NCBI GenBank assembly: GCA_017436225.1
Contig: JAFSDM010000011.1
Coordinates: forward strand, 1 to 53,726
Length of the DNA: 53,726 nucleotides
Direction: 5' to 3'
Source of the DNA: Clostridia bacterium
GTDB taxonomy: Bacteria > Bacillota > Clostridia > Oscillospirales > Acutalibacteraceae
Part shown: piece after piece, positions 38 through 40,263 of the stretch
Position numbering within the stretch: the first letter of the stretch is position 1
Layout of the letters: every line of letters starts with the position of its first letter
The notes under the pieces: generated by a model
Told to the model about the DNA's origin: nothing
The model's database searches: none
The model's input: the letters and a program-made list of their open reading frames with translations, nothing else
Position numbers and translations under genes: made by a program

Positions 38-580
38 ATGAAAAAATATGTTTGCTTAATTTGTGGTTATGTTCATGAGGGTGACAGCGCTCCTTCCGAG
101 TGCCCAATTTGTAAAGCTCCCGATACCAAGTTCAAGCTTCAGGAGGAAGAAAAGGGTTGGGCTGCCGAGCACGTAATCGGCATTGCAAAGGGTGTTGACC
201 AGAGAATTGTTGACGGTCTTAGAGAGAACTTTATGGGCGAGTGCACCGAGGTTGGTATGTACCTTGCAATGGCAAGAGCTGCTCACCGTGAAGGCTACCC
301 TGAAATCGGTCTTTACTGGGAAAAAGCCGCTTTGGAAGAGGCAGAGCATGCAGCTAAATTTGCAGAGCTTTTAGGCGAAGTTGTAAGCCCCAGCACTAAA
401 GAAAACCTTAAGGTTCGCGTAGAGGCTGAAAACGGCGCAACCTACGGCAAAAACGAGCTTGCAAAGCTTGCTAAGGAGCTTGGTCTTGACGCTATTCACG
501 ATACCGTTCACGAAATGGCAAGAGATGAAGCCCGCCACGGCAAAGCATTTGAGGGACTTTTAAAGAGATACTTCGGTTAA
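38..580 (+). CDS. rbr: Reverse rubrerythrin (rubredoxin domain at the N-terminus)
   Basis: Predicted cytoplasmic peroxide-scavenging non-heme iron protein. Residues 1-35 form a small rubredoxin-like domain with two Cys pairs (CLICG and CPICK); residues about 45-180 form a four-helix ferritin-like domain with the di-iron motifs E..E and EEAEH, and a second set near the C-terminus (DEARHG). In classical rubrerythrin the rubredoxin domain is C-terminal; here the order is reversed, as in the clostridial oxygen-induced revRbr proteins. The reading frame is open back to a TTG at 23, but GGAGGA at 25-30 places the start at ATG 38. A terminator hairpin follows and ferritin lies 55 bp downstream, so the two form an oxidative-stress/iron pair. 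Upstream regulation is outside the window. Confidence 0.93.
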
Positions 581-590
581 TTAAAAATTA

Positions 591-616
591 GGGCGGTCAA
601 CCACGACCGCCCTTTT
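591..616 (+). terminator. Rho-independent terminator after rubrerythrin
   Basis: Perfect 8-bp stem GGGCGGTC/GACCGCCC with a 6-nt loop followed by TTTT. It lies only about 10 bp before the ferritin ribosome binding site (AAGGAGA near 620), so ferritin is either expressed by read-through or from a promoter inside this gap that I cannot see. Confidence 0.8.
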
Positions 617-634
617 AAAAAAGGAGATATTTTT

Positions 635-1147
635 ATGTTAGACAACAAGGTAATAGAACTTTTAAACGATCAAATCAACAAAGAATTTTACAGTGCATAT
701 CTTTATTTAGATATTGCAAATTATTACACCGCCAACGATTTGGACGGTTTTGCAAACTGGTATACTATTCAGGCTCAGGAGGAGCGCGACCACGCACTTT
801 TGTTCCTTAAGTATTTGCAAATTAACGGTATTCCCGTCGAGCTTAAGGCTATTGGTAAGCCTGATAAGACTTTTGAAAACCATCTTGACCCACTTTTAGC
901 GGGTGCCGAGCACGAGAGATATGTAACAAGCCTTATTCATAATATTTATGATGCTGCCTATTCTGTTAAGGATTTCAGAACAATGCAGTTTTTGGATTGG
1001 TTTGTTAAGGAGCAGATGGAGGAGGAAGAAAACGCCGATAAAATGGTTAATAAATATAAACTTTTTGGCGATGACCCCAAAAGCCTTTATCTACTTGACC
1101 AAGAGCTTGCCGCAAGAATTTATACCGCCCCAAGCCTTGTTTTATAG
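635..1147 (+). CDS. ftnA: Bacterial non-heme ferritin
   Basis: Iron-storage protein that oxidises Fe(II) at a di-iron centre and mineralises it in a 24-subunit shell. At 170 aa it has the normal family length. Visible ferroxidase residues include the N-terminal E in NKEFYSAYLYLDIANYY, the QEERDHALLFLKYL motif (E and H of the A site) and the later EEQMEEEENAD-type acidic cluster. RBS AAGGAGATAT lies just upstream of the ATG. It follows rubrerythrin, matching a peroxide/iron detoxification role. A strong terminator follows the stop. Confidence 0.93.
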   Translation: MLDNKVIELLNDQINKEFYSAYLYLDIANYYTANDLDGFANWYTIQAQEERDHALLFLKYLQINGIPVELKAIGKPDKTFENHLDPLLAGAEHERYVTSLIHNIYDAAYSVKDFRTMQFLDWFVKEQMEEEENADKMVNKYKLFGDDPKSLYLLDQELAARIYTAPSLVL

Positions 1148-1163
1148 TTGAAAATTTCATTTG

Positions 1164-1196
1164 GATGTGCTATCATTTTGGTAGCACATCTTTTTT
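1164..1196 (+). terminator. Terminator after ferritin
   Basis: Stem GATGTGCTA/TAGCACATC (9 bp) with a 9-nt loop, followed by six T. It ends only 16 bp before the start of the next gene. Confidence 0.85.
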
Positions 1197-1212
1197 ATTT
1201 TGGGGTGAAACA

Positions 1213-1725
1213 ATGATTATTTTAATTACAGGCGCATCACATACTGGCAAAACGGCACTTGCTCAAAAACTGCTTGAAAAATATAAATATCCCTATCTTT
1301 CAATTGACCATCTTAAAATGGGGTTAATTCGCAGTGGCAATACTGCCCTTACTCCTTTAGATGATGATAAGCTTACCGAATATTTGTGGCCCATTGTACG
1401 CGAAATGATTAAAACCGCCATTGAAAATAAGCAAAATCTGATTGTAGAGGGTTGTTATATTCCTTTTGATTGGGCAAATGATTTTGATAAAGAGTATCTT
1501 GAAAACATTAAATACTATTGCCTTATACTTAGCGAGAGTTACATTAAAAACAATTTTGCCGATATTAAAAAATTTGCCAGCGTTATTGAAAACCGTTTAG
1601 ATGATGAGTGGTGTACTATGGAGAGTGTACTTACTGACAATGCAGAAGTGCTCTCCCTTGCCAAAAGGCATAATGTAAACTATATTCTGATTGATGATAA
1701 ATACGAAATTAATATTGATTTTTAA
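1213..1725 (+). CDS. P-loop nucleotide kinase-like protein
   Basis: Small cytoplasmic NTP-binding protein of 170 aa. The N-terminus has a hydrophobic strand and a Walker A loop (GASHTGKT, residues 6-13), a following S-I-D-H segment typical of the small kinase fold, and NLIVEGCYIPFDWA in the region where adenylate-kinase-like enzymes bind substrate. I recognise the fold class (AAA/2-phosphoglycerate-kinase-like P-loop kinases) but not the substrate. The ORF could begin upstream inside the ferritin terminator; ATG 1213 is chosen because GGGGTG at 1202-1207 precedes it. No clear promoter fits between the terminator (ends 1196) and the start, so low-level read-through from ferritin is likely. Confidence 0.6.
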   Translation: MIILITGASHTGKTALAQKLLEKYKYPYLSIDHLKMGLIRSGNTALTPLDDDKLTEYLWPIVREMIKTAIENKQNLIVEGCYIPFDWANDFDKEYLENIKYYCLILSESYIKNNFADIKKFASVIENRLDDEWCTMESVLTDNAEVLSLAKRHNVNYILIDDKYEINIDF

Positions 1726-1766
1726 AAGCTTGGCATAAACCTTATGCGGATTTTGTCTAAAAAATG

Positions 1767-1795
1767 TTGTAGAAATTAGTATGGTGTGATATAAT
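1767..1795 (+). promoter_or_regulatory. Sigma-A-type promoter for the MATE gene
   Basis: TTGTAG (1767-1772), 17 bp spacer, TATAAT (1790-1795), located 35 bp before the MATE start codon. Confidence 0.6.
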
Positions 1796-1829
1796 CACTT
1801 AGTTACATTAAAAAGAAAGAGGTTAAAAT

Positions 1830-3209
1830 ATGGCTAAGCTTTTAACGGGTTCTGTTGATATGACAACTGGTACCCCATGGAAGAAAATTGTACAGTTTAC
1901 TATGCCAATGCTTATAGGCAATATTGCTCAGCAGCTTTACAGCACGGTAGATACCATCGTTGTTGGCAGATATGCTTCTAATGGTGATAACGCTATTGCT
2001 GCGGTAGGAAGCGCACTTCCTATTCTTAATATGTTGCTTGTTTTGTTTATTGGTATTTCTGCCGGTGCCAGCGTTATGGTGGCGCAGTATTTCGGCGCTA
2101 AAAATCGCAAGGCGCTTTCTTTTACTGTTGGTAACTGTATTACCGCAACCGCAATCGCTTCGGTAGTTCTTATAGCTATTGCGGCGCCGTTTATCAGGCA
2201 AATCCTGATTGTGCTTAATACCCCCGAAAACATACTTCAGTGGTGTTATGAATATTTAATGATTTCGCTTATTGGCATAGCGGGTATGGCTTACTATAAT
2301 ATTTTAAGCGGTATTTTAAGGGGTCTTGGCGATTCCTTTTCATCCCTTGTCTATTTGCTTATTGCAACCGTAATTAACATTATTCTAGATATTTGTTTTG
2401 TTGCAGGTCTTAAAATGGACGTTGCGGGCGTTGCCCTTGCAACCATTATTGCACAGTGTATTTCTTCGGGTCTTTGCCTTATTAAATTATCCCGTATGAA
2501 ACAGCATTTCGACTTCGGATTTAGGTATTTAAAGCCAACGGGAAACTACATAAAAACTCTTGTAAAATTAGGTCTTCCGTCGGGTCTTACTCAGGCAATA
2601 ATTTCTTCGGCTATGATAATTGTACAGTCCCTTACCAATCAGTTTGGAGAGCAGTTTATCGCCGCCAATGTAATTATTATGCGTGTAGATGGCTTTGCTA
2701 TGATGCCTAACTTCTCATTCGGTATGGCGCTTACTACATATTCGGGTCAAAATGTTGGCGCAGGTCTTTATGACAGGGTTGCAAAGGGCGCAAAGCAGGG
2801 CACCCTTATGGCGGTTGGCTGTTCAACCGTTATTACCGCTGTAATTCTTCTTTTTGGCAAACACCTTATGAGTGTATTTACCGAAACCGCCGAGCTTGTA
2901 AACCTTGCCGCAAGCCTTATGCTTATACTTGCTGTAGGCTATATTGCAATGGCGGTCACACAAAGCCTTTCGGGCATTATGCGTGGTGCGGGCGACACTA
3001 TGACACCTATGTGGATTTCACTTATAACCACCGTTGTGGTGCGTGTGCCGTTAGCTTACGGAATTTCATATTTAACCGCTACTGAGACGCTTCCCAACGG
3101 AAGAAAGGAATGTATACAAATTTCCCTTTTATGCTCTTGGATTATAGGCGCGGTGCTTACCGCAATTTTCTTCAGCCGAGGAAAATGGAAATCAAAGGCA
3201 ATAAAATAA
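1830..3209 (+). CDS. MATE-family multidrug/Na+ exporter
   Basis: Integral membrane exporter of 459 aa, normal for the MATE family, with about 12 predicted hydrophobic helices in two repeated six-helix halves. The beginning (TTGTPWKKIVQFTMPMLIG) and the motif around QLYSTVDTIVVGRY are characteristic of the DinF/NorM-like clostridial branch; the second half repeats the pattern from about residue 235 (LVKLGLPSGLTQAIISSAMII). Members exchange Na+ or H+ for organic cations or metabolites; the substrate cannot be read here. ATG 1830 is preceded by AGAAAGAGG. It is monocistronic, with its own promoter and a terminator. Confidence 0.9.
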   Translation: MAKLLTGSVDMTTGTPWKKIVQFTMPMLIGNIAQQLYSTVDTIVVGRYASNGDNAIAAVGSALPILNMLLVLFIGISAGASVMVAQYFGAKNRKALSFTVGNCITATAIASVVLIAIAAPFIRQILIVLNTPENILQWCYEYLMISLIGIAGMAYYNILSGILRGLGDSFSSLVYLLIATVINIILDICFVAGLKMDVAGVALATIIAQCISSGLCLIKLSRMKQHFDFGFRYLKPTGNYIKTLVKLGLPSGLTQAIISSAMIIVQSLTNQFGEQFIAANVIIMRVDGFAMMPNFSFGMALTTYSGQNVGAGLYDRVAKGAKQGTLMAVGCSTVITAVILLFGKHLMSVFTETAELVNLAASLMLILAVGYIAMAVTQSLSGIMRGAGDTMTPMWISLITTVVVRVPLAYGISYLTATETLPNGRKECIQISLLCSWIIGAVLTAIFFSRGKWKSKAIK

Positions 3210-3238
3210 TAAATCGGTTTTACAAAACACATCCGTTT

Positions 3239-3280
3239 TTGGGAGACGCTTCGTAAAGAAGTTTCTCCCAATTTCTTTTT
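3239..3280 (+). terminator. Terminator after the MATE gene
   Basis: TTGGGAGA/TCTCCCAA stem (8 bp) followed by a T-rich tract (TTTCTTTTT). Confidence 0.7.
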
Positions 3281-3290
3281 ATATTAAAAA

Positions 3291-3570
3291 TGACACTTTC
3301 GGTTTGAAAGTGTCATAGTGGGTTACATATTTTAAAATTATACCTATCTCAAAGATAAATGTAATGAGTGATATTGTGAGACAGGTCTCACAGTTTTATT
3401 TTGCCTTACGGCAAAGTGATATTAAAACCTTTGGTTTTAGTTTTATTATATTCGCTCCAAAACTGCCGAAGGCAATATCACTTGGACGAAGTCCAAATAT
3501 AACTGCGAAGCAATATAACTCGCCGATAGGCGAATATAACTGAGGCGCACTTCCTTACGGAGTGCGCCTC
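3291..3570. repeat. Array of short hairpins joined by ATATAACT/AGTGATAT linkers
   Basis: Nine hairpins in 280 bp, with unrelated stems but recurrent loops: 3291-3315 (10 bp), 3375-3392 (8-bp stem, TGTGAGAC/GTCTCACA), 3401-3414 (TTGCC, loop TTAC), 3423-3439 (TAAAACC, loop TTT), 3464-3474 (TGCC, loop GAA), 3482-3496 (TTGGAC, loop GAA), 3504-3512 (TGC, loop GAA), 3520-3533 (TCGCC, loop GATA) and 3542-3570 (GAGGCGCAC, loop TTAC, terminator-like). Linkers on the left are AGTGATAT (3367-3374, 3415-3422); on the right they are the reverse complement ATATCACT (3475-3482) and then ATATAACT (3497-3504, 3513-3520, 3534-3541). The array is therefore built as two converging halves. It fills the gap between the MATE gene and glgC and has no coding capacity. 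Confidence 0.75.
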
Positions 3571-3770
3571 TTTGGGTGTGTTTTTTCTTTTTAAAGAAAA
3601 AAACAGTCATAAAACTTTCAAAAACTTATATACTTAAAAAGTCGCAAACAATCTTCAAAAAGAAGAAAAAATTCTGTTATTTGGCAAAAAATACTATATT
3701 TTTTGTTAATTTTATACAAAAAATAGAGAAGAACATTTACAACTTAGATTTAAAATATACAAAAAAGCCC

Positions 3771-5068: not shown

Positions 5069-6183
5069 AAAACAATAACGTAATGGGCGTTGTTTTTGCC
5101 AACGTCAACGATGATTTAATTCGCGAGCTTACCGAAGTTCGCTCTATGGCATCGGTGCCCTTTGGCGGAAGATACCGTATGATAGATTTTTCTCTTTCAA
5201 ACCTTGTTAATGCAGGTGTTTCTAAGGTTGGAATTATTCCCAAATATAATTATCACTCATTAATGGACCATGTAGGCTCGGGTAAGCCTTGGGATCTTGA
5301 TCGTAAAAGCGGCGGTCTTTCCATTCTTCCGCCCTATGTTAATTCTGAGATTAGTATAGATACAGGCCGTATAGATTCTCTTAGCTCGGTTATGAGCTAC
5401 CTATCAAAGAGCAAGGAAAATTACATCGTTCTGTGCGATGCCGACGTGGTTGGTAATATTGATATTTCTAAGATGGTCGATGCTCATATAGAAAGCAAGG
5501 CGGATATCACATTCGCTTATAAAAACGGACCGCTCCCCAAAAGCAATGCAAATATTATGACCTTTGAAATGCAGGATGATGGCAGAATTGTTAAAATCAG
5601 AACACCCGAAAATTATGGTGTTATCTGTGATTTTAGCTTGGACATTATCATTATGCAAAGAACCTTGCTTATAGATTTGGTTAAAACTGCAAGGGAAGAA
5701 AATATGAGTCATCGTTTAAGAGATGTTATTTCTTCCAAGATTGATACCCTTAAACTGGTGGGCTATGAAGTAAAGGAATTCACGCTTGTTATTGATGGTA
5801 CGGATTCTTATGCAAACGCAAACTTTGCACTTCTTGACCCCGCAGTAAGAGCAGAGCTTTTTGCCCTTGAAAGACCTATCTACACCAAAAATCGCGATGA
5901 CGTTCCAACCCGTTACGGCTTGGAAGCAAAGGTTTCTAATTCACTTATTGCAGATGGCTGTGTAATTGAAGGTGAGGTTAACGACTGTGTTCTTTTCCGT
6001 GGTGTTAAGGTTGAAAAGGGCGCAAAGCTTTCTAACTGTATTATTATGCAGGACTCTGTGGTTAGAAGCAACGCTAATTTAAGGTGTGTTATAGCTGATA
6101 AAAACGTGGAAATTACTGAAGGCAGAGAGCTTTCAGGCGCTCCCACACACTATATGACGGTTAGAAAATCCTCAAAGGTTTAA
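5065..6183 (+). CDS. glgD: GlgD regulatory subunit of ADP-glucose pyrophosphorylase
   Basis: Paralogue of GlgC (372 aa). Firmicutes form a GlgC-GlgD heterotetramer in which GlgD raises catalytic efficiency and has little activity itself. The nucleotide-binding GGQGSRL loop of GlgC is replaced here by [20 protein letters not shown], while [19 protein letters not shown] and [11 protein letters not shown] are retained; this degeneration is the usual mark of GlgD. The C-terminus again has hexapeptide repeats. Start ATG overlaps the glgC stop by 4 nt, indicating translational coupling. Confidence 0.93.
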
Positions 6184-6198
6184 GTGCTTAAAAAACAT

Positions 6199-6227
6199 CC
6201 CAAGCCCGTAAAAATACAGGGCTTGGG
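6199..6227 (+). other. Intercistronic hairpin between glgD and glgA
   Basis: Perfect 9-bp GC-rich stem CCCAAGCCC/GGGCTTGGG with an 11-nt loop but no T-run after it. It is more likely an mRNA-processing or stability element, or a leaky terminator, than a full stop before glgA. Confidence 0.55.
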
Positions 6228-6269
6228 AGCGTTAAATTATATTTATCCAGATACGAAAGGTATAAAAAA

Positions 6270-7685
6270 ATGAAAGTTTTATTTGCAGCCAGTGAAGCCT
6301 ATCCTTTTGCTATGTCGGGCGGTCTTGCAGATGTAGCGGGTGCGCTTCCAAAGGCATTAAGAAGTCGTTTTGTAGGTTGTCGAGTGGTGCTTCCCCTCTA
6401 CGGTACAATAAGTGAAGAATTGCGAAGCAAAATGAAATTCATAACACATATTACTGTTCCCGTGGCGTGGCGCAGGCAGTATTGCGGTGTTTTTGAAGCC
6501 CATGCAGACGGCGTTATTTACTATCTTATCGACAATCAGTACTACTTCAAGCGTGATACTTTTTACGGTCATTATGATGATGCCGAAAGATTTGCGTTTT
6601 TCTCACGTGCGGTGCTTGAAATTATTCCGCATATTGATTTTGTTCCCGATGTTATTCATTGTAACGATTGGCAAACAGCCATGATTCCCGTCTATAAAGA
6701 TAGATTTTATAACACAGGAATTTATCAGAATATTAAAACAGTTTTCACAATTCATAATATTCAGTATCAGGGCAAGTACGGCTACGGCGTTTTAGGTGAT
6801 GTTTTAGGTCTTGGCGACGATGCGGCTCACCTTGTAGAATACGGTGGCTGTGTAAATCTTATGAAGGGCGCTATTGAAACCGCTGACAGGGTAACAACCG
6901 TCAGCCGCACCTACGCCGAGGAAATTTTAACCCCTTGGTTCTCACACGGACTTGATGAAATCTTAAAATTAAGGCAGTTTAAGCTAAGCGGTATTGTAAA
7001 CGGTATTGATACCGAGGTTTACAACCCCGAAACCGACCCGCTTATTTATAAACATTTTTCTGCAACCGATTTTTCGGGCAAGGCGGTTAATAAGGCGGAG
7101 CTTCAAAAAGAAATGGGTCTGCCCCAAAAGGCAGATGTTCCCGTTATTGGTATAGTAAGCCGTCTTGTTGGGCATAAAGGCTTTGACCTTGTTAAAGCAG
7201 TTTTTGAAGATATGCTAAAGGCGGATGTTCAGTTTGCAATTTTAGGCTCAGGCGAGTGGGAGTTTGAAACCTTCTTTTACAATATGAAGGAAAAATATCC
7301 CGAAAAGGTTGGACTTAAATTGGGCTTTGTACCTCAGCTTGCCCACCGCATTTATGCCGGCGCTGATATTTTCTTAATGCCCTCTAAGAGCGAGCCTTGC
7401 GGTCTTGCTCAGATGGTGGCTCTCCGCTATGGAACCATTCCTATTGTTCGTGAAACAGGCGGACTTAAGGATACAATTCAAGATAGCGGCGACGGTAAGG
7501 GTAACGGCTTTACCTTTGCTACCTACAACGCTCACGATATGCTTGAAGCAGTTTGGCGTGCCCTTGCAGGCTATAGTGACCCCGAAGGCTGGAACACACT
7601 TGCTCTTCGCGCTATGGAATGTGACAACACCTGGAAACGCTCGGCAGGGGAATACCTTAAGATTTATAAAGGTCTTGTAAATTAA
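6270..7685 (+). CDS. glgA: Glycogen synthase (ADP-glucose-dependent)
   Basis: Transfers glucose from ADP-glucose to the non-reducing end of alpha-1,4-glucan (glycosyltransferase family 5). The N-terminus carries the KxGG-like donor loop region (ASEAYPFAMSGGLADVAGALP); the second Rossmann half has GIVSRLVGHKGFDLV and the nucleotide-sugar motif PSKSEPCGLAQMVALRYGTIPIVRETGGLKDT. 471 aa is normal. RBS CGAAAGG precedes ATG. It is the third gene of the glgCDA operon; branching enzyme and phosphorylase are not in the window. Confidence 0.96.
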   Translation: MKVLFAASEAYPFAMSGGLADVAGALPKALRSRFVGCRVVLPLYGTISEELRSKMKFITHITVPVAWRRQYCGVFEAHADGVIYYLIDNQYYFKRDTFYGHYDDAERFAFFSRAVLEIIPHIDFVPDVIHCNDWQTAMIPVYKDRFYNTGIYQNIKTVFTIHNIQYQGKYGYGVLGDVLGLGDDAAHLVEYGGCVNLMKGAIETADRVTTVSRTYAEEILTPWFSHGLDEILKLRQFKLSGIVNGIDTEVYNPETDPLIYKHFSATDFSGKAVNKAELQKEMGLPQKADVPVIGIVSRLVGHKGFDLVKAVFEDMLKADVQFAILGSGEWEFETFFYNMKEKYPEKVGLKLGFVPQLAHRIYAGADIFLMPSKSEPCGLAQMVALRYGTIPIVRETGGLKDTIQDSGDGKGNGFTFATYNAHDMLEAVWRALAGYSDPEGWNTLALRAMECDNTWKRSAGEYLKIYKGLVN

Positions 7686-7696
7686 AAGTTTTAAGA

Positions 7697-7740
7697 AAAA
7701 CCTCTAAAGGTAGATTATGGACTGCCCTTAGAGGTTTTTT
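7697..7740 (+). terminator. Terminator of the glycogen operon
   Basis: Stem AAAACCTCTAA/TTAGAGGTTTT (11 bp) around a 20-nt loop, followed by T residues. Confidence 0.85.
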
Positions 7741-7761
7741 CTTTTAGCCTATGAAGTATGC

Positions 7762-7790
7762 TTGAAAAAAACTGTTTAAAGTGATATAGT
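7762..7790 (+). promoter_or_regulatory. Promoter for the membrane acyltransferase
   Basis: TTGAAA (7762-7767), 17 bp, TATAGT (7785-7790). Confidence 0.75.
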
Positions 7791-7844
7791 TAAAATATAT
7801 CTTCCGAAATTAAAATGCTTTAATATTGTCAAAGGAGAATTTTT

Positions 7845-8948
7845 ATGCAAGCCATACCCAGTGTTGCAGCCAAGAAAAGTGAAAGAAACTACGGCATAGA
7901 TTTGCTCAGGATTATTTCAATGCTTATGATTATTATTTTACATATTTTAGGGCACGGAGGTGTTTTGAAGAATACTGCTGTGCTTTCATACCGTTATGAG
8001 GCTGCATGGTTTTTAGAAACTGCATCATATTGCGCTGTAAACTGTTATGCACTTATATCGGGTTATGTGGCAGTAAATTCCAAGTTTAAGTATTCAGGCA
8101 TTGTGTCTTTGTGGCTTCAGGTTGTTTTTTATACCGTTTTAATTGCAACGGTAATGGCAATTGTTTCGCCCAATATAGGTAAAGCAGAGGTTATAGACGC
8201 TTTTTTCCCTGTTTCTAATAAAATTTATTGGTATTTTACAGCTTATTTTTGTATGTACTTTTTTACGCCTATATTTAATAAAGCAATAGGAGCCCTTAGT
8301 GAAAAACAGTTAAAAGCAATAGGCGTTGCTATTTTTGCGGTATTTTGTCTTATTCCCTTTTTAAAACAATCAGATATTTTTTCGGTTATTCGCGGGTATA
8401 GTCCAATTTGGCTTATGATGCTTTACATTTTGGGCGGAATAATTAACAAATGCAATTTATTAAGCAAAATCAAACCTTGGGTTTTAATTCTTTTATATGT
8501 TTTAATGGTAGCTATAACTTGGGGTGAGCGGCTTATTTGTGATTATTATAATGCTAACTTTTCGCCCGAAAATCAACTTGTTACCAAGCTTACTCAGTAC
8601 ACCTCTCCAACTATATTTTTTGCTGCAATATTTCTGTTTGTAGGCTTTTCAAAACTAAAAATAAGCGGAGCTTTGATAAAGCCTATTGCACTTTTTTCAT
8701 CTACCTCTTTTAGTGTTTATTTAATACACGAAAACCCTTATGTACGGGTAAATGTTATTAAAAAAATAGCAACGGTATTCCCAAAATTAAACACACCTTT
8801 ACTTGTGCTCGGCGTATTGGCAACGGCGGTGCTTATTTACCTAATCTGCAGCCTTATTGATATTATCCGAGAAAAGCTTTTTAAGGCATTAAAAGTAAAA
8901 AAACTTGTAAGCAATATGGAACAAAAATTATTTAAAAACATATGGTAA
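7845..8948 (+). CDS. Acyltransferase family 3 membrane protein (OafA/WecH type)
   Basis: Integral membrane O-acyltransferase of 367 aa with about ten hydrophobic helices. The start (RNYGIDLLRIISMLMIIILHI) contains the family signature, an R/D-rich turn followed by helix 1 with the catalytic-region His. Proteins of this family acetylate or succinylate cell-surface glycopolymers or lipids. Its position just before polymer-export and glycerophosphate-transferase genes suggests it modifies the same surface polymer, but this is inferred from context. It has its own promoter and terminator. RBS AAAGGAG. Confidence 0.85.
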   Translation: MQAIPSVAAKKSERNYGIDLLRIISMLMIIILHILGHGGVLKNTAVLSYRYEAAWFLETASYCAVNCYALISGYVAVNSKFKYSGIVSLWLQVVFYTVLIATVMAIVSPNIGKAEVIDAFFPVSNKIYWYFTAYFCMYFFTPIFNKAIGALSEKQLKAIGVAIFAVFCLIPFLKQSDIFSVIRGYSPIWLMMLYILGGIINKCNLLSKIKPWVLILLYVLMVAITWGERLICDYYNANFSPENQLVTKLTQYTSPTIFFAAIFLFVGFSKLKISGALIKPIALFSSTSFSVYLIHENPYVRVNVIKKIATVFPKLNTPLLVLGVLATAVLIYLICSLIDIIREKLFKALKVKKLVSNMEQKLFKNIW

Positions 8949-30959: not shown

Positions 30960-30987
30960 TTGACTTTTTTAAAAAAATGAATATAAT
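30960..30987 (+). promoter_or_regulatory. Promoter of the aspS-gatC/gatA/gatB operon
   Basis: TTGACT (30960-30965), 16 bp, TATAAT (30982-30987), just before the T-box leader. No terminator was found between the lipoprotein stop and this promoter. Confidence 0.75.
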
Positions 30988-30992
30988 ATTTA

Positions 30993-31210
30993 TGAAGACC
31001 CATCCTTTGTGGAAAACCTTTCAGGGAATACGCGTCGGCGACTGTGAGCGCGTTAAGGCTAGTAGTAGGAATGGTAACACTTCAGCGTAGTTTCAAATTT
31101 AATACCTAAAGTGGATATGATTTTTCATATCAATACGGGTGGCACCGCGGGTTAATTTTAATTTACTCGTCCCGGGAATAATTAGTTATTCCCGGGGCTT
31201 TTTATTTTGT
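30993..31210 (+). ncRNA. T-box leader, specifier reads as AAC (asparagine)
   Basis: The T-box core GGGTGGCACCGCGGG lies at 31137-31151. A lower Stem I helix TGAAG/CTTCA (30993-30997 with 31080-31084) places AAC-A at 31076-31079 in the specifier loop position on the 3' side, i.e. an Asn codon followed by a purine. Stem III is GATATGA/TCATATC near 31113-31131. The competing terminator is CCCGGGAATAA/TTATTCCCGGG (31171-31196) followed by a T-rich tract. Uncharged tRNA(Asn) would favour the antiterminator and switch on the downstream genes. The T-box identity is certain; the specifier assignment is by hand-folding. Confidence 0.9.
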
Positions 31211-31237
31211 CTACGGGAAAATTTAGGAGGTTTTTTA

Positions 31238-33313
31238 ATGTACAGAACACTATTTTGTAACGATATTCGCGATGAGCATATCGGTACAACCGTTCAGCTT
31301 GCAGGCTGGGTAGACGTCGTTCGTGACCACGGCGGCGTTATATTCATCGATTTGCGTGACTACACCGGTGTAACACAGGTTGTTGTTCACAATGAAGAAT
31401 TTCTAAAAAACGTAAACCGTGAAACAGTTATTTCTGTTACGGGTAAGGTTGAAAAGCGTGACGAAGACACAGTAAACGCTAAAATCGAAACAGGTACGGT
31501 AGAGCTTGTTGCCGAAAAATTAGAAATTCTTGGCAGAAGCTATAATATGCTTCCCTTTGAAGTAAGAGCTTCAAGAAGCAGTAAGGATGAGCTACGCCTT
31601 AAATACCGTTATCTTGATTTGCGCAACCCCAAAAACCACGAAAATTTGGTTATGCGTTCAAAAATTATCCGTCATATACGCAATAAAATGGAAGAAAAGA
31701 ACTTCCTTGATATGCAAACTCCTATCCTTACCGCATCTTCACCTGAAGGCGCGCGTGACTTCCTTGTGCCTAGCCGTAAGCACCCCGGTAAGTTCTATGC
31801 TCTACCACAGGCTCCACAGCAGTTTAAGCAGCTGCTTATGGTTTCAGGCTTTGATAGATACTTCCAAATTGCACCCTGCTTCCGTGATGAGGATGCCCGT
31901 GCCGACCGTTCGCCCGGTGAATTCTATCAGCTCGACTTTGAAATGGCTTTCGCAACACAAGAAGAAGTTTTGGAGGTTTGTGAAGACGTAATTTACGATA
32001 CCTTTAAAACCTTCTCTAATAAAAAAATAACCGAAAAGCCCTTCCGCCGCATCACCTATGCAGATGCAATGATGAAATACGGCTCCGATAAGCCCGACCT
32101 TCGCAATCCTCTTATAATCTGCGATTTAACCGATTTCTTTGCAGACGTTAATTTCCCCGCCTTTAGGGGCAAACCTGTTCGCGGTATTGTTGCTAACTGT
32201 CAGGGTAAATCCAATAAATTCTTTGAAGATTCCTTAAAGTTTGCAACCTCTTCTGAAGTTGGTCTTGGCGGTCTTGGTTATATCACCTTAAAGGAGGGCG
32301 TTTTCTTAGGCCCAATCGCTAAATTCTTAAGCGATGAGAAAAAGGCAGAAATCGTAACCCTTACAGGCGTTAAAGAGGGCGAAACCTTATTCTTTATTTG
32401 TGATGACAAGAAAAATGATGCCGAGAAAAAGGCAGGTCACATTCGTTCTTGGCTTGCAAGAAAGGAACAGCTTGACCTTATCAAAGATGATGCGTTTGAA
32501 TTCTGCTTTATCGTAGACTTCCCAATGTATGAGATTGATGAAGAAACAGGCGACACTATCTTCACTCATAACCCGTTCTCAATGCCGCAAGGCGGTATGG
32601 AAGCGCTTCTCGGCGATGATCCAACAAAGGTTTTAGCCTATCAGTATGACCTTGTTTGTAACGGTATTGAGCTTGCATCGGGCGCGGTTAGAAACCACGA
32701 TGTTGAAATAATGAAAAAAGCATTTGAAATTGCAGGTTATTCTGAAGATGAGCTTAAATCTCGCTTCAATGCTCTTTATACCGCATTCCAGTACGGTGCA
32801 CCGCCACACGCAGGTATGGCGCCCGGTATTGACCGTACAGTAATGCTTTTAACCGATGAAGAAAAAATTCTTGAAGTTATTGCATTCCCATTAAACGGTA
32901 ATGCTCAAGACCTTTTACTCGGTGCTCCAAGCGAAGTTACAAATCAGCAGCTTGAGGATGTTCATTTACTTGGCAATAATAGCGCTCTTGCCACTCGTGC
33001 CGCACAGTCAGGCACATCAAAAAGGCAGGGAGATAAGCGTTCAACCTTCTCTAATGCTCAACAGCTTAATCAGTTAGAGCTTACCGAAGCAGAAGAGGGC
33101 ATTATGAATTCTGTTTTTGCTAAAATGAGCGAAAGCGAAGCAAAGCTTAAGGATATTGATACCGAAAACACAGAAGAAATGATATACGTTATGCCTATGA
33201 CCAACGTACTTCGTGAGGATGAGCGCAAACAGCCCTTCACAAGAGAAAGTTTGCTTGAAGGCGCACCCGAGCGCAGCGATGACAGTTGGCAGGTACCACG
33301 ACTTGTTAAGTAA
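31238..33313 (+). CDS. aspS: Aspartyl-tRNA synthetase fused to GatC
   Basis: 691-aa protein. Residues 1-about 590 are a bacterial-type AspRS: OB-fold anticodon domain (QLAGWVDVVRDHGGVIFIDLRD), class II motif 2 (FRDEDARADRSPGEFYQLDFEMAF), the GAD insertion, and motif 3 (GMAPGIDRTVMLL) ending in NGNAQDLLLGAPSEV. Residues about 608-691 (33059-33310) are an entire GatC: LNQLELTEAEEG, MTNVLREDE, SLLEGAPERSDDSWQVPRLVK. A linker of about 20 residues joins them and no stop intervenes. ATG 31238 follows AGGAGG; an internal ATG at 33104 after AGAGGG could yield a shortened GatC. A probable non-discriminating AspRS would make Asp-tRNA(Asn) and hand it to GatAB encoded directly downstream. Confidence 0.93.
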   Translation: MYRTLFCNDIRDEHIGTTVQLAGWVDVVRDHGGVIFIDLRDYTGVTQVVVHNEEFLKNVNRETVISVTGKVEKRDEDTVNAKIETGTVELVAEKLEILGRSYNMLPFEVRASRSSKDELRLKYRYLDLRNPKNHENLVMRSKIIRHIRNKMEEKNFLDMQTPILTASSPEGARDFLVPSRKHPGKFYALPQAPQQFKQLLMVSGFDRYFQIAPCFRDEDARADRSPGEFYQLDFEMAFATQEEVLEVCEDVIYDTFKTFSNKKITEKPFRRITYADAMMKYGSDKPDLRNPLIICDLTDFFADVNFPAFRGKPVRGIVANCQGKSNKFFEDSLKFATSSEVGLGGLGYITLKEGVFLGPIAKFLSDEKKAEIVTLTGVKEGETLFFICDDKKNDAEKKAGHIRSWLARKEQLDLIKDDAFEFCFIVDFPMYEIDEETGDTIFTHNPFSMPQGGMEALLGDDPTKVLAYQYDLVCNGIELASGAVRNHDVEIMKKAFEIAGYSEDELKSRFNALYTAFQYGAPPHAGMAPGIDRTVMLLTDEEKILEVIAFPLNGNAQDLLLGAPSEVTNQQLEDVHLLGNNSALATRAAQSGTSKRQGDKRSTFSNAQQLNQLELTEAEEGIMNSVFAKMSESEAKLKDIDTENTEEMIYVMPMTNVLREDERKQPFTRESLLEGAPERSDDSWQVPRLVK

Positions 33314-33328: not shown

Positions 33329-34510
33329 ATGAAATATTATGCAGTAAAAATTTCTGATAAGGGAAGCATTGCAGTTGATGATACCATTCTTGTAAAGGGT
33401 GCTCAGACTGCGGCAGGTTCCCGTATTTTAGAAGGGTTTAAACCCCTTTTCAGTGCAGAAGCAGTAACCAGACTTGAAGAAAAAGGCTATACCGTTTCGG
33501 GCAAAGCTAATGTTGGCGAATTTGGTTTAGACCTTGTTGGTGAGTTTTCCTACTACGGCGAAAATGACGGTACTTTAAAGGGCGCCTCAGCAGAGCTTGT
33601 AGCAAAGGGCGAGGCTAGTGCCGCTCTCGGTGTGGACGTAAACGGTAGCACAAGACGTGCCGCCGCACTTTCAAAGGTAAATTTCTTAAAGCCTACCTAC
33701 GGCACCGTTTCACGCTATGGCGTTGTTTCTACTGCCGCTTCGGGTGAGCAGTTAGGCGTTTATGCTAAGGATACCGCAAAGGTAAAAGAGATTATGCAAA
33801 TAATCTCCGGCCACGATGAAAAGGATGGCACAAGCCTTAAAAAAGAGTATGAATACTCTGACACAGCCGATGTAAACGGTAAAAAGGTTTGCATTATTAA
33901 AGAGCTTATGGAAAAAGCCGATGATGAAGTAAAGGCTTTAGTTAATACTTATGCTGAAAATCTTCGCAAAAACGGCGTAGTGGTTGAAGAGGTTTCTTTT
34001 GACCTTTGCGACGTGGCAAATACCGCTTGGCAAATCCTTTATTCTGCCGAAACCTGTAATAACGTTTCCCGTTATGACGGCGTTAAGTACGGTTATCGCG
34101 CAGAAAACTATAAGAATATTGATGAATTATATGTTAATTCAAGAACTGAAGGCTTCAACTTCCTTACAAAAGCGGTTATCCTTTATGGTTCCGACGTTCT
34201 TTCTAAAAACCGTTATGATGCCTGCTACGGCAAATCCTTAAAGGTTCGCAGAGTAGTTTGTGATAAATTTGAAGAGCTTATGAAGCAGTATGATGCAGTT
34301 CTTACCCCCGTAGCAAGTAAGGCAGAATTTGCCCCGTACGATATTTCCGAAGCCTTTATTAAGGTGTTTAATGAGGGTGTATTTACCGCCATTCCTAACC
34401 TTGTTGGAACTCCCGCTTTGGTAAGCGGCGGCGTACAGCTTATTGGTTGGCATTTTGCAGAAAGCACTCTGCTTAGCCTTGCAGGCAGTGTAGAAAGGAT
34501 GGGTGAATAA
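33329..34510 (+). CDS. gatA: GatA-like amidotransferase subunit with degenerate active site
   Basis: Homologue of the glutaminase subunit of Asp/Glu-tRNA amidotransferase, but only 393 aa against about 485: the first 60-70 residues are missing. The catalytic Lys of the IKDN motif is Asp17 (VDDTI). The GGSSGGSA loop with the cis-Ser is TLKGASA (Leu83/Lys84 in place of the two Ser). Only the nucleophilic Ser of DTGGS survives (DVNGS, Ser107). Flanking sequence is clearly GatA (LKPTYGTVSRYGVV, VSRYDGVKYGYRA, DAVLTPVAS, GVQLIGWHFAESTLL). It therefore probably cannot hydrolyse glutamine in the normal way. It follows the fusion gene by 15 bp, and ends 1 bp before gatB. Confidence 0.88.
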   Translation: MKYYAVKISDKGSIAVDDTILVKGAQTAAGSRILEGFKPLFSAEAVTRLEEKGYTVSGKANVGEFGLDLVGEFSYYGENDGTLKGASAELVAKGEASAALGVDVNGSTRRAAALSKVNFLKPTYGTVSRYGVVSTAASGEQLGVYAKDTAKVKEIMQIISGHDEKDGTSLKKEYEYSDTADVNGKKVCIIKELMEKADDEVKALVNTYAENLRKNGVVVEEVSFDLCDVANTAWQILYSAETCNNVSRYDGVKYGYRAENYKNIDELYVNSRTEGFNFLTKAVILYGSDVLSKNRYDACYGKSLKVRRVVCDKFEELMKQYDAVLTPVASKAEFAPYDISEAFIKVFNEGVFTAIPNLVGTPALVSGGVQLIGWHFAESTLLSLAGSVERMGE

Positions 34511-34511
34511 T

Positions 34512-35918
34512 ATGAATTATGAGGTTGTAATTGGTCTTGAAACCCACGTAGAGCTTAGCACAGAATCTAAAATTTTCTGTTCCTGCGGCGGCCATTCTGC
34601 CGCTAAAGAACCTAACGACTGTGTATGCCCTGCCTGTAGCGGTATGCCCGGTATGCTTCCCGTAATGAATAAGCGCGTTGTTGAGCTTGCAGTTACCGCA
34701 GGCTTAATGCTCAACTGCGAAATCAGTCGTTACACCACCTTTGATAAAAAGAATTATTATTACCCCGACCTTCCTTGCGCATACCAAATCACTCAGCTTA
34801 ATCACCCCATCTGCACCAACGGTTTAGTTTCTGTTGGTAAGCGTGATATCAGAATTAAGCAAATCCATATGGAGGAGGATGCAGGTAAGCTTGTTCACGA
34901 AGGCAAATTCTCCTTTGTTGACTTCAACCGTACCAGCGTTCCCCTTATTGAAATCGTTACTCAACCCGATTTCAGAAGCGCTGAAGAGGTTGTTTCTTAC
35001 CTCACAAAGCTTAAATCTATGTTCCGTTCAGGCGGTATTTCGGAATGTGAAGAGGGCGCAATGCGTTGCGATATTAACATCTCTGTTCGCCCCGAGGGCA
35101 GTGAGGAATACGGTGTTCGTACCGAAATTAAGAATATGAGCTCACTTGAAGCTATCGAAAAGGCAATCCGCTATGAATCACAGCGCCATATAGATGCTAT
35201 TGAGTTTGAAACCGAAGAGCTTGTTCAGGAAACCAGAAGATTTGATGACGTAAGCGGTAAAACCTTTGCAATGCGAAATAAGGAAACCGAAGCCGATTAC
35301 CGTTACTTCCCCGATGCCAACATAATGCCGATTATCATTGATGATGAGTGGCTTGAGCAGATTAAATCTGCAAAGCCAGTTGCTATTGATGAGAAAGCAG
35401 AGGCTTACAGAAATGCAGGTATTTCTGAAAAAGAAATCGAAATGCTTATCGGTAACTTTAAAATCAGTAAGCTCCTTGATGATGTTATTGCTCTTGGTTG
35501 CAATGCTAAGGATAGCGCCGCTTGGATTTTAACCGACTGTGCAGGTATTCTTCGCAAGGGGGGACTCCTGCTAAACGACCTTGATATCACCCCCGAAGCA
35601 CTCAGTACAATCATAAAACAGGTTGAAACAGGCAAAATTAACCGTGCCGCAGGTAGAAAGGTGCTTATTGCGGTTATTGAAGATAAAGCCGACCCGACTG
35701 AGTTTATTAAGAAAAACTCTCTTGATGCTAAGCTTGATGAGAATGCAATCAACGCCGTTATTGAAAAGGTTATTGCCGCAAATGAAGCCGCAGTTGCCGA
35801 TTATAAAAGCGGTAAAGAAAAGGCTTTACAGGCTATTTTCGGTTCTTGTATGCGTGAGCTTAAGGGCGCAGGTGACCCCGCAGTTATTAAGTCGCTCTTA
35901 GAGAAAAAATTAAAATAA
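34512..35918 (+). CDS. gatB: Asp-tRNA(Asn)/Glu-tRNA(Gln) amidotransferase subunit B
   Basis: Kinase/transamidase subunit that activates the tRNA-bound Asp or Glu with ATP and amidates it. 468 aa, normal length. Signatures are intact: YEVVIGLETHVELSTESKIFCSCGG, CPACSGMPGMLPVMN, FDKKNYYYPDLPCAYQITQ, EEDAGKLVHEG, FVDFNRTSVPLIEIVTQPD, followed by the helical cradle and C-terminal YqeY-like tail (AILTDCAGILRKGG-type region, ALQAIFGSCMRELKG). ATG 34512 is preferred to GTG 34503 because GAAAGGA (34493-34499) is then 12 nt away instead of 3. Confidence 0.95.
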   Translation: MNYEVVIGLETHVELSTESKIFCSCGGHSAAKEPNDCVCPACSGMPGMLPVMNKRVVELAVTAGLMLNCEISRYTTFDKKNYYYPDLPCAYQITQLNHPICTNGLVSVGKRDIRIKQIHMEEDAGKLVHEGKFSFVDFNRTSVPLIEIVTQPDFRSAEEVVSYLTKLKSMFRSGGISECEEGAMRCDINISVRPEGSEEYGVRTEIKNMSSLEAIEKAIRYESQRHIDAIEFETEELVQETRRFDDVSGKTFAMRNKETEADYRYFPDANIMPIIIDDEWLEQIKSAKPVAIDEKAEAYRNAGISEKEIEMLIGNFKISKLLDDVIALGCNAKDSAAWILTDCAGILRKGGLLLNDLDITPEALSTIIKQVETGKINRAAGRKVLIAVIEDKADPTEFIKKNSLDAKLDENAINAVIEKVIAANEAAVADYKSGKEKALQAIFGSCMRELKGAGDPAVIKSLLEKKLK

Positions 35919-37494: not shown

Positions 37495-37507
37495 TTGTCT
37501 ATAAATA

Positions 37508-37672
37508 TCGATAGAGGTCGCATTACTTATAAGTAGCTTTTTAAAGGTGCGGGGTAACGCAAAAAAGTGAAAGGAAGTATTGCCGAAGTGGCTTTGGCTT
37601 TACCAATTAGCTAAAACTGCTGGTTTATTGCAAAATATGTAATAAACTGTCACATTTGTGGAGCGCTATCTT
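37508..37672 (+). ncRNA. Lysine riboswitch (L-box)
   Basis: Conserved blocks in order: GATAGAGGTCGC near 37510, AAGTAGC, GTGAAAGGAAGTATTGCCGAAG near 37567, a CTGCTGG...ACTGTCAC hairpin (37617-37652) and the closing GGAGCGCTATC (37660-37670), whose CTATC pairs with GATAG at 37510-37514 to form P1. The terminator follows, so lysine binding should switch the downstream transporter off. Confidence 0.88.
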
Positions 37673-37699
37673 ACGACAAATTATTTATGTAAATTTTTG

Positions 37700-37749: not shown

Positions 37750-39372
37750 ATGACAGCAAAGAAAATCATTCCTAAAGTGCTTATTGTTGCCTTTGTTGTT
37801 GGCTTTGGTGTGCTTTGTGCTTTAACAGGCAACATCACAAGCCCCGTAGGTACATTATGGTCACTTTTCCCACCAGTAGTTGCAATCGGTCTTGCTCTTC
37901 TCACTAAAGAGGCTTATTCTTCACTTTTCATAGGTGTTGTAATGGGCGGACTTCTTGCAACAGGCTTCAACCCCATCCACACTGTTGATGCGGTTACAAC
38001 AACCGGCTTTATTGATGCAGTTTCAGGTACTGCGGGCATCTTCATATTCCTTGTTTTACTCGGAATTGTTGTTGCTCTTATAAATAAGGCGGGCGGTTCT
38101 CGCGCATTTGGCGAGTGGGCAGCAAAACACGTAAAAACTAAGGTTGGCGCTTCTATTGCTACCTTCTGTTTCGGTGTTTTAATCTTTATTGATGACTATT
38201 TTAACTGCCTTACCGTTGGTGCAGTTATGCGTCCCGTAACCGATAAAACCAAAATTTCCCGCGCAAAGCTTGCATATTTGATTGATGCTACCGCCGCCCC
38301 CGTTTGTATGATAGCACCTATCTCTTCTTGGGCAGCAGCCGTTTCCTCTTATGCACCTGAAGGCGAAGGCTTAAAGCTTTTTATACAGGCAATCCCCTAT
38401 AACTTCTATTCACTTTTAACATTCGTATTTATTATTACTCTTACCCTTATGAAGTTCGATTACGGCCCAATGAAATTGCACGAAATGAACGCAATGAACG
38501 GCGACCTTTTCACCTCAGGCGATCATTCTTCTGCTGAGGCAGAGGAGCCTGCAACCTCAAAGGGCAAGGTTTTCGACCTTATTATTCCTATTATTTTCCT
38601 CATTGTAGTTTGCGTATTTGCTCTCTTCTATGTAGGCAGATGTATGGGTGAAGAGTGGGTATTTGCTTCTGCAAATTATGATGCTTCTTTAGGCTTTGTT
38701 GATGCTTTTGCAAACACCGATGCAACCGTAGGCCTTCCTTGGGGCGGTTTACTTGCTTTAGTTGGCATTATCATCTACTTTGTAGCAAGAAGACTCGTTA
38801 CCTTTAAAGAAGCTATGGAATGTATTCCCAAGGGCTTTATTGCTATGGTTCCCGCAATTTTAATTCTCACCATGGCAACCGCACTTAAGAATATGACCGG
38901 TATGCTCGACTCCGATGCTTTTGTTCAGGCTTCTCTTGAGTCGGCAGGCGCACTCAACAACTTCTTACCCGCTATTATCTTCCTAGTAGCTTGTGGTATT
39001 TCTTTCGCAACAGGAACTTCTTGGGGCACCTTCGGTATTCTTATTCCTATCGTTCTTAGCATATTCCCCGCAGGTAGTACAGTTGGCGTTATTGGTATGT
39101 CTGCTTGTCTTGCAGGTTCTGTTTGCGGTGACCACTGCTCACCAATCTCCGACACAACCATTATGTCCTCTGCAGGTGCACAGTGCAACCATCTTAACCA
39201 CGTATCAACTCAGCTTCCATATGCACTTACAGTAGCAGGAATTTCCTTTGTAAGCTTCCTTGTAGCTCCTTTCATTCAAAACGCTTGGATTTGTTTGGCA
39301 ATAGGCGTTGCAATGACTCTTGCAGTTCTCTTTGTAATTAAGTTTGCAACCAAGAATAAAACCGTGGCATAA
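37750..39372 (+). CDS. lysW: NhaC-family transporter, predicted lysine uptake (LysW-like)
   Basis: Integral membrane protein of 540 aa with about 12 helices, NhaC Na+/H+ antiporter family. Recognisable segments: TLWSLFPPVVAIGLALLTKEAYSSLFIGV near the N-terminus, FGVLIFIDDYFNCLTVG, SSWAAAVSSYAPEG and TSWGTFGILIPIVLSIF. The NhaC fold includes amino-acid transporters; the directly preceding lysine riboswitch matches the LysW group predicted by comparative genomics to import lysine. Substrate is therefore inferred from regulation. ATG follows GGAGG. Monocistronic with a terminator. Confidence 0.85.
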   Translation: MTAKKIIPKVLIVAFVVGFGVLCALTGNITSPVGTLWSLFPPVVAIGLALLTKEAYSSLFIGVVMGGLLATGFNPIHTVDAVTTTGFIDAVSGTAGIFIFLVLLGIVVALINKAGGSRAFGEWAAKHVKTKVGASIATFCFGVLIFIDDYFNCLTVGAVMRPVTDKTKISRAKLAYLIDATAAPVCMIAPISSWAAAVSSYAPEGEGLKLFIQAIPYNFYSLLTFVFIITLTLMKFDYGPMKLHEMNAMNGDLFTSGDHSSAEAEEPATSKGKVFDLIIPIIFLIVVCVFALFYVGRCMGEEWVFASANYDASLGFVDAFANTDATVGLPWGGLLALVGIIIYFVARRLVTFKEAMECIPKGFIAMVPAILILTMATALKNMTGMLDSDAFVQASLESAGALNNFLPAIIFLVACGISFATGTSWGTFGILIPIVLSIFPAGSTVGVIGMSACLAGSVCGDHCSPISDTTIMSSAGAQCNHLNHVSTQLPYALTVAGISFVSFLVAPFIQNAWICLAIGVAMTLAVLFVIKFATKNKTVA

Positions 39373-39542: not shown

Positions 39543-39574
39543 AACCTTGTTATTTTTAGTATTATAAATAAAGG

Positions 39575-39687
39575 CTTTCTTTGTCCCTGACGGATATAGT
39601 GGAGCACCACGTGGAGCAAAGAAAATAGTGGTAATAATAAATCTTTACAGGTGTATTTTTACCTTCCTTTGCCGACCGTCTGGGCAG
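39575..39687 (+). ncRNA. ZTP riboswitch (pfl motif)
   Basis: P1 TTTCTTTG/CAAAGAAA (39576-39583 with 39617-39624), the CCTGACGG core, hairpin GTGG-AGCA-CCAC (39599-39610) followed by GTGGAGC, and the diagnostic 3' block GCCGACCGTCTGGGCA (39671-39686). A variable 45-nt linker separates the halves. ZTP/ZMP accumulates when 10-formyl-THF is short; binding should prevent termination and turn on purine and one-carbon genes, exactly those downstream. Confidence 0.88.
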
Positions 39688-39732
39688 TCTTGTTTCCTAC
39701 TTGTAGGGATAAGACCGCCTTTTTGCTTTTTT
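39686..39732 (+). terminator. Riboswitch-associated terminator before purE
   Basis: GTCTTGTTTCCTA/TAGGGATAAGAC imperfect stem followed by a T-rich stretch (CCTTTTTGCTTTTTT). Its left arm adjoins the GGGCA block of the ZTP aptamer. Confidence 0.7.
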
Positions 39733-39762
39733 AGGCTTGTTAAACGAAAGGAATGTTTGAAT

Positions 39763-40263
39763 ATGAAAAAAGTAGCAATTATTATGGGTAGCGACAGCGA
39801 CCTTCCGGTAGTAAAAAAAGCAACAGAGGTTTTAAGGGAATATGAGGTTCCTTTTGAGGTACACGTGCTTTCTGCACACCGCACCCCCGAACAGGCGAAA
39901 ACATTTGCTTCTTTGGCAGCAGAAAACGGATTTGGCGTTATGATAGCCGCCGCAGGTAAGGCAGCTCACTTAGCAGGTGCCATTGCCGCTAACACCGTTT
40001 TGCCGGTTATAGGTATTCCCATAAAGGCATCCGTTTTAGACGGTATGGATGCTCTTCTTTCTACTGTTCAAATGCCTGCAGGTATTCCTGTTGCAACAGT
40101 AGCGATTGATGGTGCCGCAAATGCCGCTTTACTTGCAATTCAAATTCTTGCAGTAAACGATGCCGAGCTTACCTCAAAGCTTTTATCCGCAAGGGCAAAA
40201 GCCGCACGTGACGTTTTGGAAAAAGACCGTCAAATAAGTGAAGAGTTTTCACGCCGTTTCTAA
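39763..40263 (+). CDS. purE: N5-carboxyaminoimidazole ribonucleotide mutase
   Basis: Class I PurE of the purine pathway, converting N5-CAIR to CAIR. 166 aa: IIMGSDSDLPVVKKA (phosphate and substrate loop), HVLSAHRTPEQ (catalytic His), AAGKAAHLAGAIAANT and PAGIPVATVAIDGAANAALLA. The open frame extends back to 39628 across the riboswitch, but ATG 39763 after CGAAAGGAATG gives the standard N-terminus. First gene of the operon. PurK, PurB and PurC are not in this window. Confidence 0.95.
   Translation: MKKVAIIMGSDSDLPVVKKATEVLREYEVPFEVHVLSAHRTPEQAKTFASLAAENGFGVMIAAAGKAAHLAGAIAANTVLPVIGIPIKASVLDGMDALLSTVQMPAGIPVATVAIDGAANAALLAIQILAVNDAELTSKLLSARAKAARDVLEKDRQISEEFSRRF

Follow-up and report, generated by a model that had tools for sequence, protein, structure and literature searches.

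The window, the whole stretch of 53,726 nucleotides of clostridial DNA analysed here, encodes an aspartyl-tRNA synthetase (AspRS) and GatC as one continuous chain, followed by a GatA that lacks most of its catalytic residues and by a GatB with conserved motifs. We confirmed the AspRS-GatC fusion as genuine. The operon probably specifies a T-box-controlled, covalent Asn-transamidosome, in which Asp-tRNA(Asn) would be amidated with ammonia that its own GatA does not make. The loss of the GatA active site was absent from the original prediction, which centered on the fusion, and has a greater bearing on the mechanism than the fusion itself. The features of the operon are as follows.

30980..31177, forward strand: T-box-like leader RNA (cmscan RF00230, 53.6 bits, E 4.1e-11)
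31076..31078, forward strand: likely T-box specifier codon AAC (Asn), assigned by where it lies and how well it is conserved rather than on a solved fold
31171..31209, forward strand: terminator-like hairpin (CCCGGGAATAATTAGTTATTCCCGGG) and T-rich run 3' of the T-box, read in the sequence
31238..33313, forward strand: aspS2-gatC2 fusion gene, a single ATG-to-stop frame of 691 aa
31238..32968, forward strand: AspRS part, residues 1-577 (NCBIfam, 751 bits), with the non-discriminating signature His31
32969..33043, forward strand: AspRS-GatC linker, without an in-frame start codon
33044..33310, forward strand: GatC domain, about residues 603-690 (PF02686, 39.4 bits; TIGR00135, 47.1 bits)
33329..34510, forward strand: gatA2, a GatA-fold pseudo-amidase of 393 aa, with Asp17 for the catalytic Lys, Leu83 for the cis-Ser and Ser107 at the nucleophile position
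34503..35918, forward strand: gatB2, catalytic and YqeY-like domains (PF02934, 365 bits; PF02637, 121 bits)

The AspRS-GatC fusion, its operon and its relatives

The fusion gene starts with the ATG at 31238, preceded by an AGGAGG at 31225-31230, and ends with the stop codon at 33311-33313. Its product is 94% identical to that of locus L061 over a full-length alignment. The AspRS part is composed of an OB-fold, a class II core and a GAD insert, and Pfam places the OB-fold at residues 19-98, tRNA-synt_2 at 117-553, GAD at 315-393 and GatC at 615-686, the latter well above its cut-off of 23 bits. The NCBIfam models for aspartate--tRNA ligase and gatC (TIGR00135, with a score equal to its cut-off) agree with this division. 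Thus, the aspS frame runs on into GatC without a stop, as had been predicted, and PF02686, named beforehand as a check on the C-terminal end, recognizes it. Of the 42 fused loci described below, 22, including the window, contain no in-frame ATG, GTG or TTG in the stretch from AspRS residue 577 to helix 1 of GatC, so that a free GatC is unlikely to arise from ordinary initiation in these loci; a start with a ribosome-binding-like sequence before GatC occurs in three of the 42.

Directly behind the fusion gene lies gatA2 (from 33329), whose end is overlapped by gatB2 (from 34503), and all three families, GatA, GatB and GatC, are recognized by Pfam in the operon. GatB2 passes the GatB model NF004012 with 554.9 bits (cut-off 338). 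Canonical GatB, represented by 38 rows, has 131 conserved columns, of which 99 are kept in at least 90% of 60 rows of the dead-GatA clade, a count that still included the duplicates L099 and L106. GatB2 and AspRS2 both retain their conserved motifs. Further downstream, the window holds a lysine riboswitch (37504-37676, 113 bits) ahead of a gene at 37750-39372 whose product, an NhaC-like antiporter, may transport lysine; its nearest NCBIfam model is Tet(35), at 180 bits and far under the cut-off of 750. A ZMP/ZTP riboswitch (39573-39692, 50.8 bits) overlaps the start of a listed 211-aa frame at 39628-40263.

Searching 150 same-family genomes with the window GatA revealed 13 carriers of a short GatA, the window genome included; AspRS and GatC are fused in nine of them, encoded by neighbouring genes in three, and lie 2.5 kb apart in G014. 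Draws at order level yielded the operon in 16 of 394 genomes and draws at class level in 12 of 391, covering 15 further families; carriers in these draws were called by a gap in score (at least 399 bits versus at most 310 bits), and some belong to the same species as the named loci. Finally, the best 80 loci of a named-genome scan comprised 47 carriers, two of which probably repeat genomes already counted. Judging from their titles, these are uncultured members of the Clostridia, Oscillospiraceae and Lachnospiraceae, and many come from the guts of ruminants. The operon is thus scattered over 16 families in the drawn samples, with similar copies across families (e.g., the GatA of L142 from family f20 is 72% identical), and this scatter may reflect horizontal transfer.

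In 69 related loci with both the AspRS and GatC ends in view, the two are fused in 42 and split in 27. This count was freed of duplicates (L099 and L106, of G056 and G036), near-copies (L144 and L145, of L077 and L085) and L046, which stems from the same genome as L047; the incomplete loci L068, L094 and L096 stand outside it. Such recurrence contradicts a sequencing error or missed stop near 33020-33060, which the original prediction had named as a danger, and likewise rules out a frameshift. That all 47 named carriers are uncultured or metagenome-assembled, by title, could invite the suspicion of an assembly or annotation artefact, to which we give next to no credence, as it is already contradicted by the 42 fused loci and by dN/dS values well under 1. 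A fusion lacking in close relatives would also have spoken against the prediction. The fusion is present in many genomes; the sole same-genus genome sampled (G092) gave no match to the window GatA2, while other genera and families did.

In a tree of GatA and GatB, calculated by a quick method with SH-aLRT support only and with two long branches flagged, two changes are required to explain the fused or split state. One fused clade, of 26 rows, is sister to three split rows; the second, of 15 rows, joins split rows at an unresolved fork. The two clades also differ in the AspRS-GatC junction. This suggests that AspRS and GatC, split in the ancestor, became fused twice independently, the count of changes alone not separating gain from loss. 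Two loci depart from the usual layout: in L045, about 2.5 kb with two frames of 331 and 213 aa (about 508-3044) lie between aspS and gatC-gatA2-gatB2, and in L096 gatC-gatA2-gatB2 are present, while the 5.6 kb upstream of 5663 contain nothing that matches AspRS.

Loss of the GatA active site

GatA2 is almost certainly a dead amidase. Compared to canonical GatA, the alignment shows that it lacks about 60 N-terminal residues, that the AVKDN motif reads AVDDT, which places Asp17 at the position of the catalytic Lys, that the GGSSGG loop with the cis-Ser is missing and Leu83 takes its place, and that a segment of about 10 residues is missing ahead of the last GxQ motif, close to the C-terminal end. 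The roles assigned to the triad residues are those known from the amidase-signature family. Of the Lys-cisSer-Ser triad of glutamine-dependent GatCAB, only the nucleophile is kept in the window (Ser107), and GatA2 scores 277.8 bits against TIGR00132 (gatA), under its curated cut-off of 481.

The same holds throughout the clade. Across 73 GatA rows, from which near-copies had been removed, the Lys column contains Asp in 67, Glu in three and a gap in three, i.e., an acidic residue in 70 of 70 rows with a residue. None of the 71 rows with a residue in the cis-Ser column keeps the Ser (Leu in 59, Ile in nine, Asp in two and Glu in one), and two rows have a gap; where the loop is shortened, the residue assigned to this column is alignment-dependent. 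At the nucleophile position we find Ala in 44 rows, Ser in 19, Thr in six, Tyr in two, Phe in one and a gap in one. All three residues are intact in 52 of 52 canonical GatA rows.

The predicted structure of GatA2 retains the full amidase fold of GatA, and the protein evolves under purifying selection, with dN/dS values of 0.060-0.138 in 11 of 12 pairs. Decay into a pseudogene was rejected on the basis of these low values. Outliers in the dN/dS comparisons (AspRS of L072/L104 with 0.72; GatA of L155/L156 without a value) probably arise from in-frame stops in L104 and L156 that put the codon pairing out of register; a stop inside GatA is found in a few rows (G056, L149, L154 and L156). New residues have become invariant across the clade at the former active site, e.g., Asp17, Asn105, Arg110 and Glu140, and the site may do something new rather than nothing. 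One could thus imagine that GatA2 is still a glutaminase whose active site was rebuilt from other residues, as the strong selection, the new invariants around the old site and the complete fold would all allow. We consider this unlikely in the face of the Lys and cis-Ser gone from every row holding a residue, Ala as the nucleophile in 44 of 72 rows and the deleted loop of about 10 residues near the C-terminal end.

Other dead forms of GatA occur in the same operon layout. One, of about 445 aa, carries Thr or Gly in place of the Lys (L054, L055, L183, L184 and four family-sample genomes); another, of 379-381 aa, carries Asp or Glu (L180-L182). A GatB tree built from selected rows places all 34 sequences from operons with a dead GatA in a single clade, apart from 24 canonical sequences (support 100/100, with long branches on some canonical rows). 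Active-site loss in GatA therefore seems to have occurred once, and early.

Probable T-box control and routes to Asn-tRNA

Upstream of aspS2-gatC2, the antiterminator T-box sequence GGGTGGCACCGCGGG is followed by the terminator-like hairpin and T-rich run. The leader score of 53.6 bits lies below the RF00230 gathering score of 93, and among the 15 loci scanned, 13 of them from the dead-GatA clade, only the divergent L100 (106 bits) and L101 (117 bits) passed it. Of the 52 clade loci in which the start of AspRS is visible, 51, all but L071, show the antiterminator pattern itself; at L054 and L055, which are more distant dead-GatA operons, no T-box was seen. In the specifier region, all 47 pattern-matched loci have AAC with A or G as the next base, and AAC is also found in the divergent L100-L103. 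The base 5' of AAC varies among the 47 loci (G 33, C 11, T 3), and the overlapping Glu codon GAA is therefore not conserved. T-box control of tRNA-dependent amidation in C. acetobutylicum is said to have been described by Saad 2012, and a two-codon T-box of this organism by Saad 2013. Given the variable base, a two-codon Glu/Asn arrangement as in C. acetobutylicum is not general in the clade. We know of no fusion or dead GatA in the C. acetobutylicum system.

The AspRS signature column contains His in 52 of 52 clade rows reaching it and Leu in AspRS1, the second AspRS of the window genome; we take His to denote a non-discriminating and Leu a discriminating enzyme. The Asp/Asn ligase of entry 4RMF, so named, shares RDHGG with the window AspRS2. 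L133, with a full-length GatA, also has the His, and the signature is thus not special to the dead-GatA clade.

In addition to AspRS1, the window genome encodes GlnRS and a canonical gatC-gatA-gatB on contig 29, and AsnRS was not found in its assembly (87.8% complete). The AAC in the specifier region, the putatively non-discriminating type of AspRS and the lack of a detected AsnRS all bear out the predicted link to Asn-tRNA. The statement that the usual gatC is absent applies to the fusion operon and fails for the genome as a whole; likewise, of the separate gatC plus asnS that the prediction had regarded as contrary evidence, gatC was found and asnS was not in this 87.8%-complete assembly. 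With canonical gatCAB at hand, the fusion need not be the sole route in this organism.

The gene content of related genomes makes the strongest case for the function of the operon. We inspected the 44 genomes behind 44 of the 47 named loci, leaving out L068, L099 and L106. Thirteen encode a canonical GatA and six an AsnRS over the cut-off, one genome having both, and neither AsnRS over the cut-off nor an intact GatA was detected in 26. GlnRS scored over the cut-off in 39 of the 44; among the 31 lacking canonical GatA it did so in 30, and among the 26 lacking both AsnRS and intact GatA in 25. Because of this last figure, missing sequence is an unlikely cause of the absences. The fused system appears to be the only visible route to Asn-tRNA in these 26 genomes and should, with no other route in view, be their Asn-tRNA source. 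Among the 13 family-sample carriers, AsnRS is found in five, canonical GatA in four and neither route in five; of the latter, G075 is 96% and G126 97% complete and the other three 69-77%. No AspRS besides the fusion was seen in G126.

AsnRS in six of 44 and five of 13 operon genomes, and canonical GatA in 13 of 44 and four of 13, could mean that the operon is not an amidotransferase but supplies Asp-tRNA or regulates translation, with GatA2 and GatB2 in a structural role. This is very unlikely: it would leave 26 of 44 genomes without a visible Asn-tRNA route and is at odds with the conserved GatB motifs and with AAC in the specifier region. Judging from gene content and motifs, the operon is very likely a functional Asn-tRNA amidotransferase; in carriers with AsnRS it may serve the synthesis of Asn.

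Genes for tRNA(Asn) lie near the operon in two loci, directly 5' of the T-box with a U1-A72 pair in L098 (3573-3647) and with G1-C72 in L084 (5-80). Recognition by bacterial GatCAB needs U1-A72, and the L084 tRNA, as a misfit to this rule, counts against our preferred explanation, as do the Ser kept at the GatA nucleophile position in 19 of 72 rows, the missing T-box at L054 and L055, and the stops inside a few GatA rows. In L081, a canonical gatC-gatA-gatB (5562-8778) follows directly downstream of the dead-GatA operon. In L069, a gene just upstream of the fused operon (2213-3586) places two kinds of AspRS side by side: its 458-aa product was considered as an AsnRS and rejected, being an archaeal-type aspartate--tRNA(Asn) ligase. 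The same-genus G092 (96% complete) has AsnRS and neither an amidase-family protein nor a GlnRS over the cut-off, which leaves Gln-tRNA formation without a visible route, perhaps through an assembly gap.

Proposed mechanism and known systems

We propose that, when Asn-tRNA(Asn) is low, uncharged tRNA(Asn) would bind the T-box and switch the operon on. AspRS2, as judged by His31 and gene content, would charge tRNA(Asn) with Asp, and the fused GatC would keep the GatA-GatB pair beside the synthetase. It is plausible that the fusion makes delivery of Asp-tRNA(Asn) obligatory. GatB, as its conserved motifs suggest, would then activate the Asp side chain and amidate it. Because catalytic residues of an amidase are missing from GatA2, another source must provide the ammonia; it would most likely enter as free ammonium through the retained GatA scaffold and tunnel, where the Asp or Glu replacing the catalytic Lys could bind NH4+.

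We lean towards free ammonium as the amide donor because 31 of the 44 related genomes contain no other amidase-family protein and because the ruminant gut is rich in ammonia. Engineered enzymes point the same way: in yeast mitochondrial GatFAB, according to PMC4027206, truncating the N-terminal part of GatF disturbs the GatA glutaminase site, lowers the use of glutamine and can raise NH4Cl-dependent transamidation. The GatA loss in the window clade, in contrast, is natural. Ammonia could also be provided in trans, by a separate glutaminase or by a canonical GatCAB docking on the GatA scaffold, and the canonical GatA kept in the window genome and in 13 of 44 related ones, together with the gatCAB adjoining the operon in L081, would suit such a supply. 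However, the 31 genomes without another amidase-family protein, the only family searched for, make it rather improbable. The AspRS part itself might act as the glutaminase; a report from 2020 reportedly describes glutaminase activities of the mycobacterial non-discriminating aspartyl-synthetase. The Pfam matches of the fusion include no glutaminase domain, and we regard this source as extremely unlikely.

AsnA offers a parallel to free ammonium as the donor, although its substrate is free Asp instead of Asp-tRNA and the enzyme has no relation to GatB. Like the proposed system, it draws on ammonia rather than glutamine as the amide source. AsnA is named an ammonia-dependent asparagine synthetase in PMC4206432.

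The bacterial Asn-transamidosomes of T. thermophilus (3KFU) and P. aeruginosa (4WJ3/4WJ4) are built from the same subunit families as the window operon, and the window AspRS part matches P. aeruginosa AspRS with 406 bits. To our knowledge, GatCAB enzymes are regarded as depending on glutamine, from which GatA releases the ammonia. The known complex consists of separate chains that assemble in a tRNA-dependent manner, according to PMC9499178, and its GatA is a glutaminase, whereas the window genes encode AspRS-GatC as one chain and a GatA2 without catalytic residues.

The bare fusion is not new to annotation, because NCBIfam already holds a bifunctional AspRS/GatC model (NF009460 / PRK12820) with the same order of AspRS and then GatC in one chain; the window fusion reaches 465.6 bits with it, far below the curated cut-off of 1379. 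The combination with a dead GatA is a new transamidosome variant. The original prediction knew of no characterised example, and titles and abstract openings in the open literature likewise yielded neither a characterised natural AspRS-GatC fusion nor a report of a GatA without catalytic residues.

In its fullest form, which we advance tentatively as a nearly even prospect, our proposal is a natural glutamine-independent amidotransferase, in which GatA would be an ammonium-admitting pseudoenzyme, AspRS-GatC would deliver Asp-tRNA(Asn), and many gut Clostridia would obtain their Asn-tRNA from this complex alone. If true, a translation amidotransferase can run on free ammonia in nature, and a covalently locked transamidosome would be available for structural work. 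Annotation of these proteins as GatA, and hence as glutaminases, would then mislead pathway predictions for these bacteria.
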